A stretch of 20,786 nt of DNA from a virus. Both the position numbers and the translations under genes were made by a program. The notes beneath the pieces were generated by a model. It was given only the letters and a program-made list of their open reading frames with translations, searched no databases and was not told the DNA's origin. Shown one piece after another: positions 2,667 to 10,393 of the stretch (its first letter is position 1; each line of letters opens with the position of its first letter). Location: IMG/VR virus record IMGVR_UViG_3300035698_013002, positions 1 to 20,786 of that record; one strand, 5' to 3'.

Positions 2667-2895
2667 GAGAGCAGTAACGATAGATTTTGATGAATTAAAA
2701 GCACAAGGTAAGATAGTACAGAAGTTTTCATTTGATGATGAGGGAGAGGCATTGAGTGCGTATAAGGATATGCATGAGTCTTTGTATTCATCCCAGAATG
2801 TAATCTTCGGTGACGGAGGAGAGTCATTCAATTTCACATTAGATATTACAATTACCCAACCTTATACAATCACAATGCAAATATATTTAGTATGA
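2653..2895 (+). CDS. Hypothetical protein (80 aa)
   Basis: An 80-residue protein starting 14 nt before the upstream stop. The N-terminal half is charged and helical (DELKAQGK, then DDEGEALSAYKDMHES). The C-terminal half is beta-rich with alternating Thr/Ile (DITITQPYTITMQIYL). No family recognised. Its stop (TGA 2893-2895) overlaps the ATG of the phosphoesterase gene, so the two are probably translated together. Confidence 0.5.
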   Translation: MEDLRRAVTIDFDELKAQGKIVQKFSFDDEGEALSAYKDMHESLYSSQNVIFGDGGESFNFTLDITITQPYTITMQIYLV

Positions 2896-4157
2896 AGAAA
2901 ATATATCAATACGATAGAGAAGGAGATCTCAAAAAGGCATGGAAAAGTACAGTAGCTGCGGCTAAAGAATTTGGTGTAGACGAGTCTTCAATAAGGAAAG
3001 CAGTGAGCCGTAATGGTACATCTGTTGGTTATTTTTGGAGTAGGGAAAAGTTAGGAAATTTCTTTGAAACAGATCTTAGTCCAGACCTAGATGAAGTGAT
3101 AGAATCTAACGACAAGTTAGAATACTCTTTACAGAAGGTACGGGACAAGCAAAGGATAGGAAAAGCTAAAAATAGGAGTAGTTATAGGTTCTACAATATG
3201 ATAGAAACCATGAGTACTGCTCTTGAGGATCAATTGGAGTCTATTGCTTTCAATGAACCTGTAGCAGTACCAACGGTAACTAAACATGGTAAGACTTTGT
3301 TAGTTCAGCTTTCGGATGCACATTTCAATGAAGAGATAGACTTGCCACATAATCAATATGACTTCTATGTAGCCTCTAGTAGGATGCAGAAACTGGCTAC
3401 AAAGATTAAAGGCTACGCTGGTGATACTTCTAAAATTATAGTTGCTATGACTGGTGATATGATTAATAGTGATCGCCGCCTGGATGAAATGCTTAATATG
3501 GCGACCAATAGAATGAAAGCCAGCTTACTAGCAACTTCATTGATTTCTTACTTTTTAAAAGACCTAGCAACAGTTGCTCCACTAGAAGTATTAGCTGTAA
3601 CTGGTAATGAAAGTCGTATCCACGACGAGTGGGGACTGACAGATGTAATGTTAACAGATAATTACGATTATCTAATTTTCAATATGCTGAAGGCAGTTTT
3701 AAAGGATCACCCTTATATTACCTTTATAGATAGTAATCCACAGGAAGCTGTGGTAGAGATTAATGGTTTAAAAATATTAGTAACTCATGGAACAATGTAC
3801 AAACAAGCTACTCAAGAGCGTATACAAAAGACCTTTGGTCGTTACGCTGCTTGTGGCATTACTCTGGATTATATTATCTTTGGTCATATTCACTTTGCTA
3901 ATATCGGTGATATTTTTGCTAGAAGTGGTTCCATTTCTGGGGGTAATACTTATTCTGAGTATGGCCTTGATCTTGTTACTAAGGCTTCTCAGAATTTGCA
4001 CATTATAGACGAGAATGGAGAGATGGACAATATTCGAATGGATCTTCATAATGTTGATGGTTATCCCGGTTATCCTATTAATGATGACATTGATGCGTAT
4101 AATGCATTGGGGAATAAGAAAGTTTACAAAAAATACACAGTAATAGTAGTGAAATAA
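2892..4157 (+). CDS. NUMOD1-like / calcineurin-like metallophosphoesterase fusion
   Basis: A 421-residue protein with two parts. Residues 3-52 read as a NUMOD1/IENR1-type DNA-binding repeat (I-Y-Q-Y-D-R-E-G, then S-T-V-A-A-A-K-E-F-G-V and S-S-I-R-K-A-V, ending G-Y-F-W). A charged linker (about 65-115) leads to a calcineurin-like phosphoesterase with metal-site motifs in order: D142-A-H144, G188-D189, G238-N239, T298-H299-G300 and G331-H-I-H334. The usual GNH-D/E motif is GNES here, so the catalytic His is replaced while the metal-binding Asn is kept. Family members cleave phosphodiesters or phosphomonoesters (SbcD/Mre11 nucleases, phosphatases). The DNA-binding domain suggests a nucleic-acid substrate, but this is inference. 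It overlaps both neighbours by 1-4 nt. Confidence 0.75.
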   Translation: MKKIYQYDREGDLKKAWKSTVAAAKEFGVDESSIRKAVSRNGTSVGYFWSREKLGNFFETDLSPDLDEVIESNDKLEYSLQKVRDKQRIGKAKNRSSYRFYNMIETMSTALEDQLESIAFNEPVAVPTVTKHGKTLLVQLSDAHFNEEIDLPHNQYDFYVASSRMQKLATKIKGYAGDTSKIIVAMTGDMINSDRRLDEMLNMATNRMKASLLATSLISYFLKDLATVAPLEVLAVTGNESRIHDEWGLTDVMLTDNYDYLIFNMLKAVLKDHPYITFIDSNPQEAVVEINGLKILVTHGTMYKQATQERIQKTFGRYAACGITLDYIIFGHIHFANIGDIFARSGSISGGNTYSEYGLDLVTKASQNLHIIDENGEMDNIRMDLHNVDGYPGYPINDDIDAYNALGNKKVYKKYTVIVVK

Positions 4158-5842: not shown

Positions 5843-8800
5843 ATGATAGAAGTTAATAAATACCAAACTCCACTTTCAGAGGAGATGCTAAAGCCACTTA
5901 ATAAAGAAGATAGGGCTGAGTTCTTTAATGCTTTAGATAATATTGCCTTTGTGTGGAATCTAATCTCCCCTAATAGAGGTTACGCTAAGGATCTAAAAAG
6001 AGATGAATATGGTAGAATTCTAGTAGAGATAACGAATCCCCATATTCTTGAGGATACTGACTACTTCAGAGAGGCTGCTATTCATTTTGAAACACACGGT
6101 CTCTATACAAATCTAACTCCTAATGCACATCCAATGTCTGAATATTTCAGGTTTTGGAAAGAGGAAGCACGGCGTTGCAGAGAGGGTCATATACGAGCAG
6201 CAGACGGAGAATGGATTCCAGGTGATTATTATTACTACTTGAATTACTCTCCTATTTTACTATCTAAAGAGAGTGGCAAGCACCACATTGTAACTAGAGT
6301 AGAAGGATTCCCTAAGTTTTGGGATGGGAGTTATCTCTACTATCATTACATGGAACAAGCCCGTCAAAAGGGTCAACATACTAATTGTTTGAAGTGTAGG
6401 GGGCGTGGATATTCTTTTGAGGGAGCATCCTTACTTGGAAAGGTTTTTATACTCGGTGATCGTGATGAAGATTCAAGGGATAAACAAAGTGCCTTTGCTA
6501 TTGCAAATGAGAAAGAATTTCTTATTAAAGATGGTATTCTAAATAAATTTACTGATAATATCAACTGGTGTGCTCAACATACTCCATTTCCTAGAAACCG
6601 ATTAAAGGATTCTTTAGATAATATGGTGTGGACAATGGGTTATAAGGATAAGGCTACCCAGAGAGTAAGTGGTACTGAGAATGAAGTTGCTGGAGTATCA
6701 TTAAAAAATGATCCTCAAAAAGCTCGTGGCAAGCGCGCTTGTAGGATACAATGGGAGGAATTTGGTAAGTTTCCTCATGTACTTACGGCCTGGCAAGTAG
6801 CTAGGCCATCTGTAGAAGATGGTGAAGTTGCTTTTGGTCAAATGAATGGTTACGGGACAGGAGGAACCTTAGGTGCAGATTTCATTGCTGCAGAGGAAAT
6901 GTTCTATAATCCAGTAGGATATAACATTATGGAGCTTCCTAATGTCTATGATTTTGGAACAGATGGTACTTCTAAGTGTAGTTTCTTTCATGGAGAATAT
7001 CTTAATAGAAATAAGTGTTATGATAAGGAAGGAAATTCTGATGTTATTAAAGCACTCATTGAGGTCTTTCTAAAACGTTCTAAGATTAAAGGAGGAACCT
7101 CTGATCCAAATGCTATCGTACAGGAGAAGGCTGAGGCTCCTATAGTACCACAGGAAGCTGTAATGAGGCGTGAGGGTTCTATCTTTCCAGTAATGGATCT
7201 TAAAGAACATCTTGCCGAGATATCTTCAGATATAGGCAAATTTACTGCCCCTCACTATGTAGGTGATCTTTACTTTACTGGTGATGGTGAAATTAAGTGG
7301 AGAATTAATCATGACAGAGTTCCCATTAGAGATTATCCAATTAAGGACAAAGAACGTCTTAATAAGTATGGTGCTATTGAAATCTTCCAACAGCCCATAC
7401 GAAGTGTAGAAGGTAAGATACCGTGGTTGAGATATATAATTGGAGTTGACCCTATTGACGATGATTATTCTACTACTGACTCTTTAGGAAGTGCATTTGT
7501 ATTTGATAGATTCAACGATCAAATAGTAGCAGAATATACTGGTAGGCCAACTACAGCAAATGAATTTTATGACATAGTGTATAGATTAGCACGTTTCTAC
7601 AATGCTATTATCAACTATGAGAATGACAAAAAAGGACTCTTTACCTATTTCACACATCGTCATGCTCTCCATTATCTAGCAGATACTCCACAGATACTAA
7701 GGGATATGGATTATATTAAAGATCCTAGGATGTATGGAAATAAGGCTCACCCATATTCTCAAAAGGTGTATACCACAAAAGGCATAAAACAGTGGGGAGA
7801 TGTAAAGATAGGAGATTATCTTTTTGATACTTTTGGTGGGAAAACAAAAATAATAGATATCCCTTTTAATAGTGAATCAGACATCTATGAAATAACCTTA
7901 AGAGATGGCAGAAAAATAAAGGCCACTAACAATCATTTATGGATGGTAATTGATGGAATGTCACATGGACGTAAAAAAGTTCGTACACTGTCTACAGTTA
8001 AAATGTTAAGCCACTATTATAGAGACAAAGGAAAATACAAAGAATATCGTTACTATTTGCCTAAGAATAATGGAGTTAGTTATAGAAAAAAGAAAGTCCC
8101 CATTAACCCATATTTTTTGGGATTAATGTTGGGAGATGGGAGTTTTACAAACTCAAAACATCACAATGCTAGTTTTTCCTCTTCCCTAGAAGATATGAAT
8201 TTTTATATGGAATATCTTGGTTATTCTTATATTACTTATGATGATAGGCACCACAATATCCGATTTAAAACTTTTGGGGAAAAAGCAGCTAATTTAAAAT
8301 TAAGCGATGTTAAATCTAGAACTAAATTTATACCAGATCTTTACAAATACAATCATAAAAATGTTCGCTTAGAAGTATTAAGAGGTTTACTAGATACTGA
8401 TGGATCTGTGGGATATGGAGGTAATCCTGAATATTGTTCAGTATCAAAAGTCCTTGCAGAGGATGTTGTAGAGTTGGCTAGAAGTTTAGGCATTAATTGT
8501 AATCTTAATGAGTTTACTAATTCTTTTGGAAAAGTCTACCAAGTAAGATTTTATACGAAAGAGAGAATTTTTAATTTACCTAGAAAAGCTAAGAAACAAA
8601 AAATAACTAAGAATAGGGCTTTTAAGACGGCTATTACTAAAATAGAAAAAGTAGGGAGAGAGAAAGCTAAATGTGTTACTGTAGATTCTAAAGACAGTTG
8701 TTATCTTATAGGAGACTTTGTAACAACTCATAATTCTAAAGGAACCAACTCAAGTAAAAACATTAATGCGTGGGGACGTAGAATGCAAGCAGACTGGATG

Positions 8801-9130
8801 CGGGAGATTGCAACCGGTGAGAAAGAGAGTTATCTAGATGAGAAAACAGGAGAGGAAATCGAAAGAGTGCCTTTACTGAATTGTCAGAAGGTTCGGTCAG
8901 TAGCTTACATAAAAGAGGCAGTAGCGTGGAATCCTGATGCCAACTTTGACCGCATTGCGGCTATGGGTATGTGTATGATACTCAGAGAGGAACTGGCTAA
9001 ATTTGAGGCCGCAGAAACAGTCAGAATTACTAAAACTAAGTCTAGGGATGATTTCTTTCTTAGGAAAGACAGAGAAGGGGAACGCTATGGTCGAGGAAAA
9101 TATCAAGCTCAAATTATTGGAAGAATCTAA
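5843..9130 (+). CDS. terL: Terminase large subunit, precursor with intein
   Basis: A 1095-residue precursor; removing the 330-residue intein (635-964) leaves 765 residues, normal for a large terminase. It pumps DNA into the procapsid with an ATPase and cuts concatemers with an RNase H-fold nuclease. ATPase: KCRGRGYS at 184-191 is a deviant Walker A with the lysine first and Tyr at the usual Lys position, like lambda gpA (KSARVGYS). Walker B is a strand ending W304-E305-E306. Nuclease: I-G-V-D536, Y-E593-N-D near 592-595, and D1036 (N-F-D-R-I-A-A) in the C-terminal extein are the likely metal ligands. The intein interrupts G-N-K / S-K-G-T inside the nuclease domain, so the nuclease should be active only after splicing. 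No Shine-Dalgarno is seen at ATG 5843; the context is A/T-rich. Confidence 0.93.
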   Translation: MIEVNKYQTPLSEEMLKPLNKEDRAEFFNALDNIAFVWNLISPNRGYAKDLKRDEYGRILVEITNPHILEDTDYFREAAIHFETHGLYTNLTPNAHPMSEYFRFWKEEARRCREGHIRAADGEWIPGDYYYYLNYSPILLSKESGKHHIVTRVEGFPKFWDGSYLYYHYMEQARQKGQHTNCLKCRGRGYSFEGASLLGKVFILGDRDEDSRDKQSAFAIANEKEFLIKDGILNKFTDNINWCAQHTPFPRNRLKDSLDNMVWTMGYKDKATQRVSGTENEVAGVSLKNDPQKARGKRACRIQWEEFGKFPHVLTAWQVARPSVEDGEVAFGQMNGYGTGGTLGADFIAAEEMFYNPVGYNIMELPNVYDFGTDGTSKCSFFHGEYLNRNKCYDKEGNSDVIKALIEVFLKRSKIKGGTSDPNAIVQEKAEAPIVPQEAVMRREGSIFPVMDLKEHLAEISSDIGKFTAPHYVGDLYFTGDGEIKWRINHDRVPIRDYPIKDKERLNKYGAIEIFQQPIRSVEGKIPWLRYIIGVDPIDDDYSTTDSLGSAFVFDRFNDQIVAEYTGRPTTANEFYDIVYRLARFYNAIINYENDKKGLFTYFTHRHALHYLADTPQILRDMDYIKDPRMYGNKAHPYSQKVYTTKGIKQWGDVKIGDYLFDTFGGKTKIIDIPFNSESDIYEITLRDGRKIKATNNHLWMVIDGMSHGRKKVRTLSTVKMLSHYYRDKGKYKEYRYYLPKNNGVSYRKKKVPINPYFLGLMLGDGSFTNSKHHNASFSSSLEDMNFYMEYLGYSYITYDDRHHNIRFKTFGEKAANLKLSDVKSRTKFIPDLYKYNHKNVRLEVLRGLLDTDGSVGYGGNPEYCSVSKVLAEDVVELARSLGINCNLNEFTNSFGKVYQVRFYTKERIFNLPRKAKKQKITKNRAFKTAITKIEKVGREKAKCVTVDSKDSCYLIGDFVTTHNSKGTNSSKNINAWGRRMQADWMREIATGEKESYLDEKTGEEIERVPLLNCQKVRSVAYIKEAVAWNPDANFDRIAAMGMCMILREELAKFEAAETVRITKTKSRDDFFLRKDREGERYGRGKYQAQIIGRI
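7745..8734 (+). other. Class 3 intein with LAGLIDADG homing endonuclease
   Basis: Codons 635-964 of terL encode a 330-residue intein. Ala1 stands where Cys/Ser is usual (the AHPYSQKVYT start aligns with the CLSYETEILT start of DnaE inteins), and the G-D at about 21-22 closes block A. Block B is T61-x-x-H64 with Trp66; block F has Cys310; the C-terminus is T328-H329-N330, followed by Ser+1. Trp at B:12, Cys at F:4 and Thr at G:5 form the WCT triplet that defines class 3 inteins, in which the block F Cys is the first nucleophile. Two LAGLIDADG motifs are present, LGLMLGDG (intein 125-132) and LRGLLDTDG (212-220), so the homing endonuclease looks intact. Splicing would join G-N-K to S-K-G-T-N. 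The N-terminal boundary is inferred; Ser5 is the alternative. Confidence 0.88.
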
Positions 9131-9155
9131 TATTTTATTATTAAGTTTATGAATA

Positions 9156-9176
9156 CCCCTAAGTTCTGCTTCGGGG
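9156..9176 (+). repeat. Left-end hairpin of the IS element
   Basis: Stem CCCC-T-AAG pairs with CTT-C-GGGG around a TTCTG loop, with one T/C mismatch in the stem. In this family the transposase recognises such a hairpin as single-stranded DNA. Confidence 0.7.
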
Positions 9177-9190
9177 ATGAATTAAACATA

Positions 9191-9222
9191 TTTGTTGGTT
9201 TCTGTAAATATACGTATATTTG
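9191..9222 (+). promoter_or_regulatory. Bacteroidota-type promoter P3 for tnpB
   Basis: TTTG at 9191-9194, 20 nt, TATATTTG at 9215-9222. The tnpB ATG (9227) follows after four bases, so the message is predicted to be leaderless, with the same geometry as P2. The promoter lies inside the IS element, so the element brings its own expression and may also feed the portal gene downstream. Confidence 0.7.
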
Positions 9223-9226
9223 TAAT

Positions 9227-10393
9227 ATGTTAAAAGGATTCAAATACAGATTATATCCTACTAAACTGCAATCTGAATTGCTTAATAAGCATATTGGGAG
9301 TAACCGTTTTATATACAACCTGGCTTTAGAAACTAAGCAAACAGCGTATGCCGGGAATAAAGTCAATCTATCATGCTTTGATCTTAACAAACAATTACCA
9401 GACTTAAAAAAGGAACTTCCATGGTTAAAAGAGATTAACAGCCAATCACTGCAAGCCCCTATAAGAAATCTCGACAATGCTTTTACTAACTTCTTCAAGG
9501 GCCATGCTGATTTTCCTAAGTTTAAATCTAAGCATAGAGGATCACAATCTTTCAATATTCCCCAAAGTATTCTAATCAAAAATGATATATTGATCATACC
9601 TAAATTTCGTGAAGGAATAAAGATCACATTACATCGTCCTACAAAGGGACTAATCAAACAGGCTACTATTAGCCGAACACCTACCGGAAAATACTTTATT
9701 TCTATCCTTTGTGATACTGGTGATTCAGTGTTAGATAAATTACCTGTTAAAGAGAAATCTTCAGTCGGTATTGATTTGGGGATAAAATTATTCTTAGTTA
9801 CTTCAGAAGGAGAGGTATTTGATAATCCTAAATATCTGCGTAAAGCAGAGTCAAGATTAAAATATACCCAATCTAAATATTCAAAATACAAGGGTAATAG
9901 AACCAAGCACAGGTTGACAATCCTACATGAAAATGTAACCAACCAACGTAAAGACTTTTTACACAAAGCTTCATACAAATTGATCAGTGAGAACCAAACG
10001 ATCTGTATTGAAGATTTAAATATCTCTGGTATGTTAAAAAACCATTGTCTGGCACAATCAATAACTGATGCAAGCTGGTCAACGTTTGTAACGATGCTGG
10101 AATATAAAGCAGAATGGTATGGTAAGAACATCTTGAAGATAGGTCGGTTTGATCCATCCTCAAAGACATGCTCTGAGTGCGGATATATCAATAAAGAACT
10201 TACACTTAAAGACAGAGAATGGACCTGCCCTAAGTGTAGTTCATTTCTTAATCGTGATATAAACGCTGCTGTCAACATAAAGTCATTTGCTTTAAAAAAT
10301 TATGTGTCTGGGACGGACACTCAAATTCAGAACGAACTACCGACATTAGTCGGAGTGCTGACTTCTGATGCCCCTCAGCTTGCTGCGGGGTAG
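9227..10393 (+). CDS. tnpB: TnpB RNA-guided nuclease
   Basis: A 388-residue TnpB. I start it at ATG 9227 (MLKGFKYRLYPT), the conserved beginning of the family; the open frame from 9149 runs through the left-end hairpin and the promoter, so its first 26 codons are not believed. RuvC residues are complete: D183 (G-I-D-L-G), E262 (I-E-D-L) and D344 (N-R-D-I-N-A-A). The zinc finger is C315-S-E-C318 and C334-P-K-C337. TnpB proteins use an RNA from the 3' end of their element to cut DNA next to a short target-adjacent motif; they favour persistence of the element by cutting empty donor sites. The last codons overlap the right-end hairpin and the presumed guide RNA scaffold. All catalytic residues are present, so the enzyme is probably active. 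Confidence 0.92.
   Translation: MLKGFKYRLYPTKLQSELLNKHIGSNRFIYNLALETKQTAYAGNKVNLSCFDLNKQLPDLKKELPWLKEINSQSLQAPIRNLDNAFTNFFKGHADFPKFKSKHRGSQSFNIPQSILIKNDILIIPKFREGIKITLHRPTKGLIKQATISRTPTGKYFISILCDTGDSVLDKLPVKEKSSVGIDLGIKLFLVTSEGEVFDNPKYLRKAESRLKYTQSKYSKYKGNRTKHRLTILHENVTNQRKDFLHKASYKLISENQTICIEDLNISGMLKNHCLAQSITDASWSTFVTMLEYKAEWYGKNILKIGRFDPSSKTCSECGYINKELTLKDREWTCPKCSSFLNRDINAAVNIKSFALKNYVSGTDTQIQNELPTLVGVLTSDAPQLAAG

Follow-up and report, generated by a model that had tools for sequence, protein, structure and literature searches.

An in-frame insert in a crAss-like terminase gene

The stretch analysed here, referred to as the window, is a 20,786-base IMG/VR viral record, a metagenomic contig. 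A single open reading frame on its plus strand (5843–9130) encodes a 1,095-residue terL precursor with an intein in frame. The precursor matches the PHROG terminase family phrog_6681 (E 2.7e-105), and its best matches are Crassvirales large terminases, mainly of Steigviridae (DAC15, cr111_1, cr108_1 and crAss001). We also examined the fold of an intein-free relative, the 743-residue TerL of L038 (L numbers designate loci in viral contigs). Its model (pLDDT 87.8) resembled the ATPase domain of T4 gp17 (Z 21.9) and the nuclease domain of RB49 gp17 (Z 18.7, 2.4 Å over 184 residues). By sequence and fold, the ORF encodes the large terminase, TerL, of a crAss-like phage.

The N-extein (5843–7744, 634 residues) comprises the ATPase domain and the first part of the nuclease domain and ends in YGNK; the C-extein (8735–9130, 131 residues) begins at Ser+1 with SKGTNSS. 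The P-loop of this TerL (about 6394–6420) reads KCRGRGYSFEG, with no lysine before the serine, and that of most close relatives reads RGxG[YF]SFK. It resembles the displaced-lysine Walker A motif of lambda gpA.

Between the exteins, positions 7745–8734 of the plus strand translate to 330 residues that begin AHPYS and end VTTHN (precursor residues 635–964). When the insert is removed, the joined sequence (...YIKDPRMYGNK-SKGTNSSKNIN...) aligns to intein-free TerLs without a gap at the joint. The nearest empty alleles are joined at the same point, reading GNK/SKGT in L037 (84% identical) and GNK/AKGT in L038 (73%), where the slash marks the insertion point. In a pairwise alignment, residue 10 of the insert falls on chain residue 10 of 6bs8, a solved class 3 intein. 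Position 1 is fixed by this alignment, by a full-length structural alignment and by the intein-free homologues that join there. The boundaries given in the original prediction are thus exact to the base, its claim that an alanine stands in place of an N-terminal Cys or Ser is upheld, and the junction that it had proposed to compare, G-N-K/S-K-G-T, is read straight through by intein-free homologues.

The sequence motifs of the insert could be read directly. Block B contains His64 (B:10), Leu65 and Trp66 (B:12) at 7934–7942, with the tryptophan at 7940–7942. Cys310 (F:4), the predicted first nucleophile, lies at 8672–8674. The intein closes with Thr328 (G:5; 8726–8728), His329 and Asn330 (8726–8734 together), followed by Ser+1 (8735–8737). 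A homing endonuclease domain with approximate limits 8099–8596 contains both LAGLIDADG motifs, FLGLMLGDG (8114–8140) with catalytic Asp131 and LRGLLDTDG (8378–8404) with catalytic Asp219. The His-Asn end, the Ser+1 and the two motifs had all been foreseen from the letters alone. Domain searches matched LAGLIDADG_3 (E 1.5e-9, residues 207–273) and Intein_splicing (E 6e-6), and comparison with PHROG intein-bearing terminases gave E 4e-30. Because of these values, and because 62% identical inteins occupy the identical site in unrelated contigs, the insert is not a chance resemblance.

The insert has the hallmarks of a class 3 intein

Tori and Perler are said to have extended the class 3 definition in 2011. 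Class 3 inteins are defined by Trp at B:12, Cys at F:4 and Thr at G:5, usually with Ser or Thr at +1 (PMC5222942). Trp66, Cys310, Thr328 and Ser+1 conform to this description, and the triplet is in register with that of 6bs8. Neither the window intein nor its tabulated crAss-TerL relatives have Cys, Ser or Thr at position 1, where all carry alanine. Ala1, Cys F:4 and Thr G:5 were common to every crAss-TerL intein checked, and Trp B:12 to all except L031, which has Phe; the WCT triplet, Ala1 and a THN end recur together in nearly all relatives.

We considered whether the insert could be a class 1 or class 2 intein in which a different residue serves as nucleophile, such as Ser5, or Ser+1 by direct attack. 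Class 2 inteins likewise lack Cys1, and a block F cysteine by itself is not unique to class 3. However, class 1 calls for Cys or Ser at position 1, where the window has Ala1, and class 2 lacks the WCT triplet, which is complete here and conserved throughout the clade. The alignment to 6bs8 also runs without gaps from residue 10, and taking Ser5 as residue 1 would leave AHPY in the spliced protein, in conflict with every intein-free homologue. We regard a class 1 or class 2 mechanism as extremely unlikely.

The modelled structure points the same way. An AlphaFold model of the intein (mean pLDDT 93.3) matched the class 3 splicing domains 6bs8 (Z 19.9), 6rix (19.4) and 6riy (19.3) over 123–128 residues at 1.6–2.0 Å, and other mini-inteins scored lower (Prp8, Z 18.1; the class 1 intein gp41-1, 17.5; the rest less). 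Judged by structural Z, the predicted splicing domain is thus closer to class 3 than to class 1. The whole chain aligned with PI-SceI (Z 26), and the two motifs with their acidic residues, Asp131 and Asp219, sit in a PI-SceI-like fold. The class 3 assignment of the original prediction therefore stands on Ala1, the WCT triplet, the 6bs8 register and a class 3-like fold, but its description of the type as rare does not. Of 50,697 phage records, 765 contain related inteins, and of the ones that were read, many belong to class 3.

The intein interrupts a conserved nuclease motif

Three acidic residues, D532, E589 and D702 in L038 numbering, are invariant in 48 intein-free TerLs. They correspond in the window to Asp536 (motif I, 7448–7450), Glu593 (motif II, 7619–7621) and Asp1036 (motif III, 8948–8950; Asp706 after splicing) of an RNase H-like nuclease fold. 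As originally proposed, the insertion lies between E593 and D1036. G628, N629 and G633 of L038, which surround the insertion point as a GN-x3-G motif, are invariant in the same 48 proteins. Lying between the nuclease's second and third catalytic acids, the intein therefore splits a motif that is strictly conserved. Since the precursor breaks an invariant motif in an RNase H fold, an active nuclease would need splicing, and unspliced TerL presumably could not cut DNA.

Among published class 3 inteins there is one pseudogene (PMC3196547), and by that precedent the insert could be a decayed relic that no longer splices, leaving TerL inactive in this phage. The open frame and complete motifs argue against this. 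Moreover, selection acts on both domains: between the window and L006, pN and pS were 0.19 and 0.71 in the splicing part and 0.30 and 0.66 in the endonuclease part, with pS near saturation for this pair. A relic is most improbable given pN so far below pS in both parts, and the same values together with the intact motifs make it likely that the window intein both splices and cuts DNA. Overall, we assign a probability of about 0.92 to the reading of the insert as a full-length class 3 intein, its LAGLIDADG homing endonuclease intact, located in the nuclease domain of a crAss-like TerL.

Related inteins occupy four sites in crAss-like TerL

A scan of viral contigs with the window intein alone gave no matches, while one with an alignment of three inteins gave 31 loci; in pattern scans, about half of the matches were chance ones in other genes or frames. 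The inteins of crAss-like TerLs fall at four sites: the P-loop at GK/S, the P-loop at RG/C-x-K-S, YE/CNKKG immediately following the nuclease's catalytic Glu, and GNK/SKG, the window's site (site C). This last site is occupied in at least six other contigs, all metagenomic (L006, L007, L013, L015, L130 and L132), with a junction reading GNT/SKG in L015. Cys+1 is found in the P-loop RG/C group (L008–L012, L014 and L017) and in the YE/C group (L016, L018, L019, L021, L022, L134, L138 and L145). Together, these two groups supply no fewer than twelve contigs in which the WCT triplet and Ala1 are combined with Cys+1; a single class 3 intein with Cys+1 was known in 2016 (PMC5222942). Among eight named phages with an intein in TerL or a TerL/helicase-like protein, none has it in the nuclease domain. 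Related inteins in bacterial genomes lie mostly in P-loops at GK/T.

L130 (IMGVR_UViG_3300010413_001333) carries two class 3 inteins in one TerL, at the P-loop and at the window's nuclease site. This contig is TGA-recoded, and TGA is also the codon for the conserved WCT tryptophan. At L030 (4001–5005), TerL and intein have only TAG stops in frame, and the phage seems to read TAG as sense. In L132 the TerL frame is interrupted some 270 residues ahead of the intein, upstream of 2040, by a frameshift, an intron or an assembly error.

In phylogenies, the crAss-TerL inteins of all four sites separated as one clade from other phage class 3 inteins (99/97; 97/98). Site labels clustered strongly on the intein tree, with 6 changes compared with 18–20 in shuffles. 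The window intein grouped with those of L006, L007, L130 and L132 (99/99), and site C inteins were split between this group and L013/L015; a single origin of the site C inteins was not rejected (p-AU 0.39 and 0.32 in two trees).

Horizontal spread and change of target site

The closest TerLs, L037 (84% identical), L071 (76%) and L038 (73%), have no insert, and among the 80 TerL loci nearest the window an insertion of this length is present only in the L006 contig (there as L113). Some inteins at this site are far more alike than their hosts: intein and extein identities are 63% and 36% for L006–L007, 62% and 45% for L013–L015, and 57% and 40% for window–L007. This disparity marks the element as a horizontally spreading homing intein, and the pattern is that of site-specific homing alleles moving between phages. 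At the empty site, most intein-free relatives read GGNAAYAAR, then a Ser or Ala codon, then AARGG.

Old target switching within the four-site clade is real. The intein might have moved within the gene, from K/S in the P-loop to K/S in the nuclease domain, helped by similarity of the targets or by loss of the P-loop lysine. Both sites do read K/S, the inteins at the four sites are one clade, and the TerLs of the window, L006, L013 and L015 have P-loops lacking GK-S. However, the nuclease-site DNA resembles the P-loop target no better than other parts of the gene do, L007 has an RGKGKTT P-loop free of any intein, and each of the two inteins of L130 is closest to those at its own kind of site, although branch support is not strong. 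We consider such a jump unlikely. A jump by alike DNA targets fails because 18%–97% of other gene positions match the P-loop target as well as the nuclease site does, and a restriction of site C inteins to TerLs whose P-loop lacks GK-S is ruled out by L007 and L130.

Proposed splicing and homing, and the question of regulation

By analogy with its family, Cys310 would attack the Lys634–Ala1 peptide bond to give the block F branched thioester. The N-extein would then pass to Ser+1, Asn330 would cyclise, and the exteins would be joined as ...YGNK-SKGT.... The endonuclease is predicted to cut intein-free terL at GGNAAYAAR/NNNAARGG, a target deduced from the junctions with cleavage presumed from the family, and repair of the cut gene would copy the intein in.

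The original prediction had gone further and suggested a timing switch, in which delayed or conditional splicing would let TerL cut DNA only late in infection. Interruption of an invariant nuclease motif fits this idea, since cutting by the precursor is not expected. In class 3 inteins splicing also relies on an oxidisable cysteine, and a stress response of splicing is reported for mycobacterial DnaB inteins (PMC6195587). Yet the closest relatives live without the intein, efficient splicing has been described for TerL inteins of mycobacteriophages (PMC5050341), and sporadic presence with horizontal spread fits a selfish element. We found no evidence for a switch and think one highly improbable. 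A broader proposal, that this class 3 clade is specialised on the crAss-like terminase with a separate site lineage for each catalytic centre, the nuclease-domain forms putting packaging under splicing control, is in our view very unlikely; if true, DNA cutting, perhaps not ATP hydrolysis, would be conditional on splicing.

Relation to known inteins

Class 3 TerL inteins are known in mycobacteriophages (PMC5050341). TerL1-c, -d and -e of that study resemble the window intein in their host protein, WCT triplet and lack of a residue-1 nucleophile, but all seven terminase sites there lie in the N-terminal ATPase domain, whereas ours is in the nuclease domain. The TerL intein of mycobacteriophage LittleE is about 30% identical to the window intein. 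TerL inteins are also known in crAss-like phages, the same gene and phage order as here: passages of Yutin et al. (2021; PMC7886860) describe them, including one TerL with two inteins, and do not give their class or site. Those of DAC15 and cr111_1 are 41–46% identical to the window intein but sit in the P-loop. The M. smegmatis DnaBi1 (6bs8) and M. chimaera DnaB1 (6rix/6riy) inteins share the class 3 residues and splicing fold (Z 19–20) but are mini-inteins without an endonuclease. Conversely, PI-SceI and other LAGLIDADG inteins share the splicing domain, the two-motif endonuclease and the full-length fold, but PI-SceI has class 1 chemistry from Cys1, in contrast to Ala1 here, and is only about 18% identical.

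Among the papers searched, none linked crAss-like phages with class 3 inteins, the sole match being the mycobacteriophage paper, and those on terminase inteins and nuclease domains yielded no site in that domain. As far as could be checked, the nuclease-domain sites and the Cys+1 members are new, the type of insert itself being known. They extend class 3 inteins from the ATPase half to the nuclease half of terminases, at two conserved sites and in an abundant phage group from the gut and the environment, and expose how one phage gene has been invaded at four sites in two domains. The four-site clade, the empty alleles and the two-intein TerL make target-site change by a homing intein testable, and the Cys+1 members test the Ser/Thr +1 rule, to which PMC5222942 knew a single exception. 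An intein-split TerL also misleads phage annotation. The DAC15 TerL (L002, 1992–5324) and NCBI intein-bearing TerLs of other phages are annotated as 'DarB-like antirestriction'.

Other features of the window

Scanning the window for Rfam families and tRNAs yielded no matches. An IS200/IS605-type TnpB (9149–10393, likely start 9227; NCBIfam NF038281, E 4e-123) stands between terL and the portal gene, which are adjacent in L037, L038 and L071. It is flanked by CCCC...GGGG hairpins near 9156–9176 and 10371–10390 that resemble IS605-type ends, without a TnpA. Upstream of terL, positions 2892–4157 encode a calcineurin-like phosphoesterase with a weak N-terminal match (E 5e-4) to NUMOD1, a domain usual in homing endonucleases.
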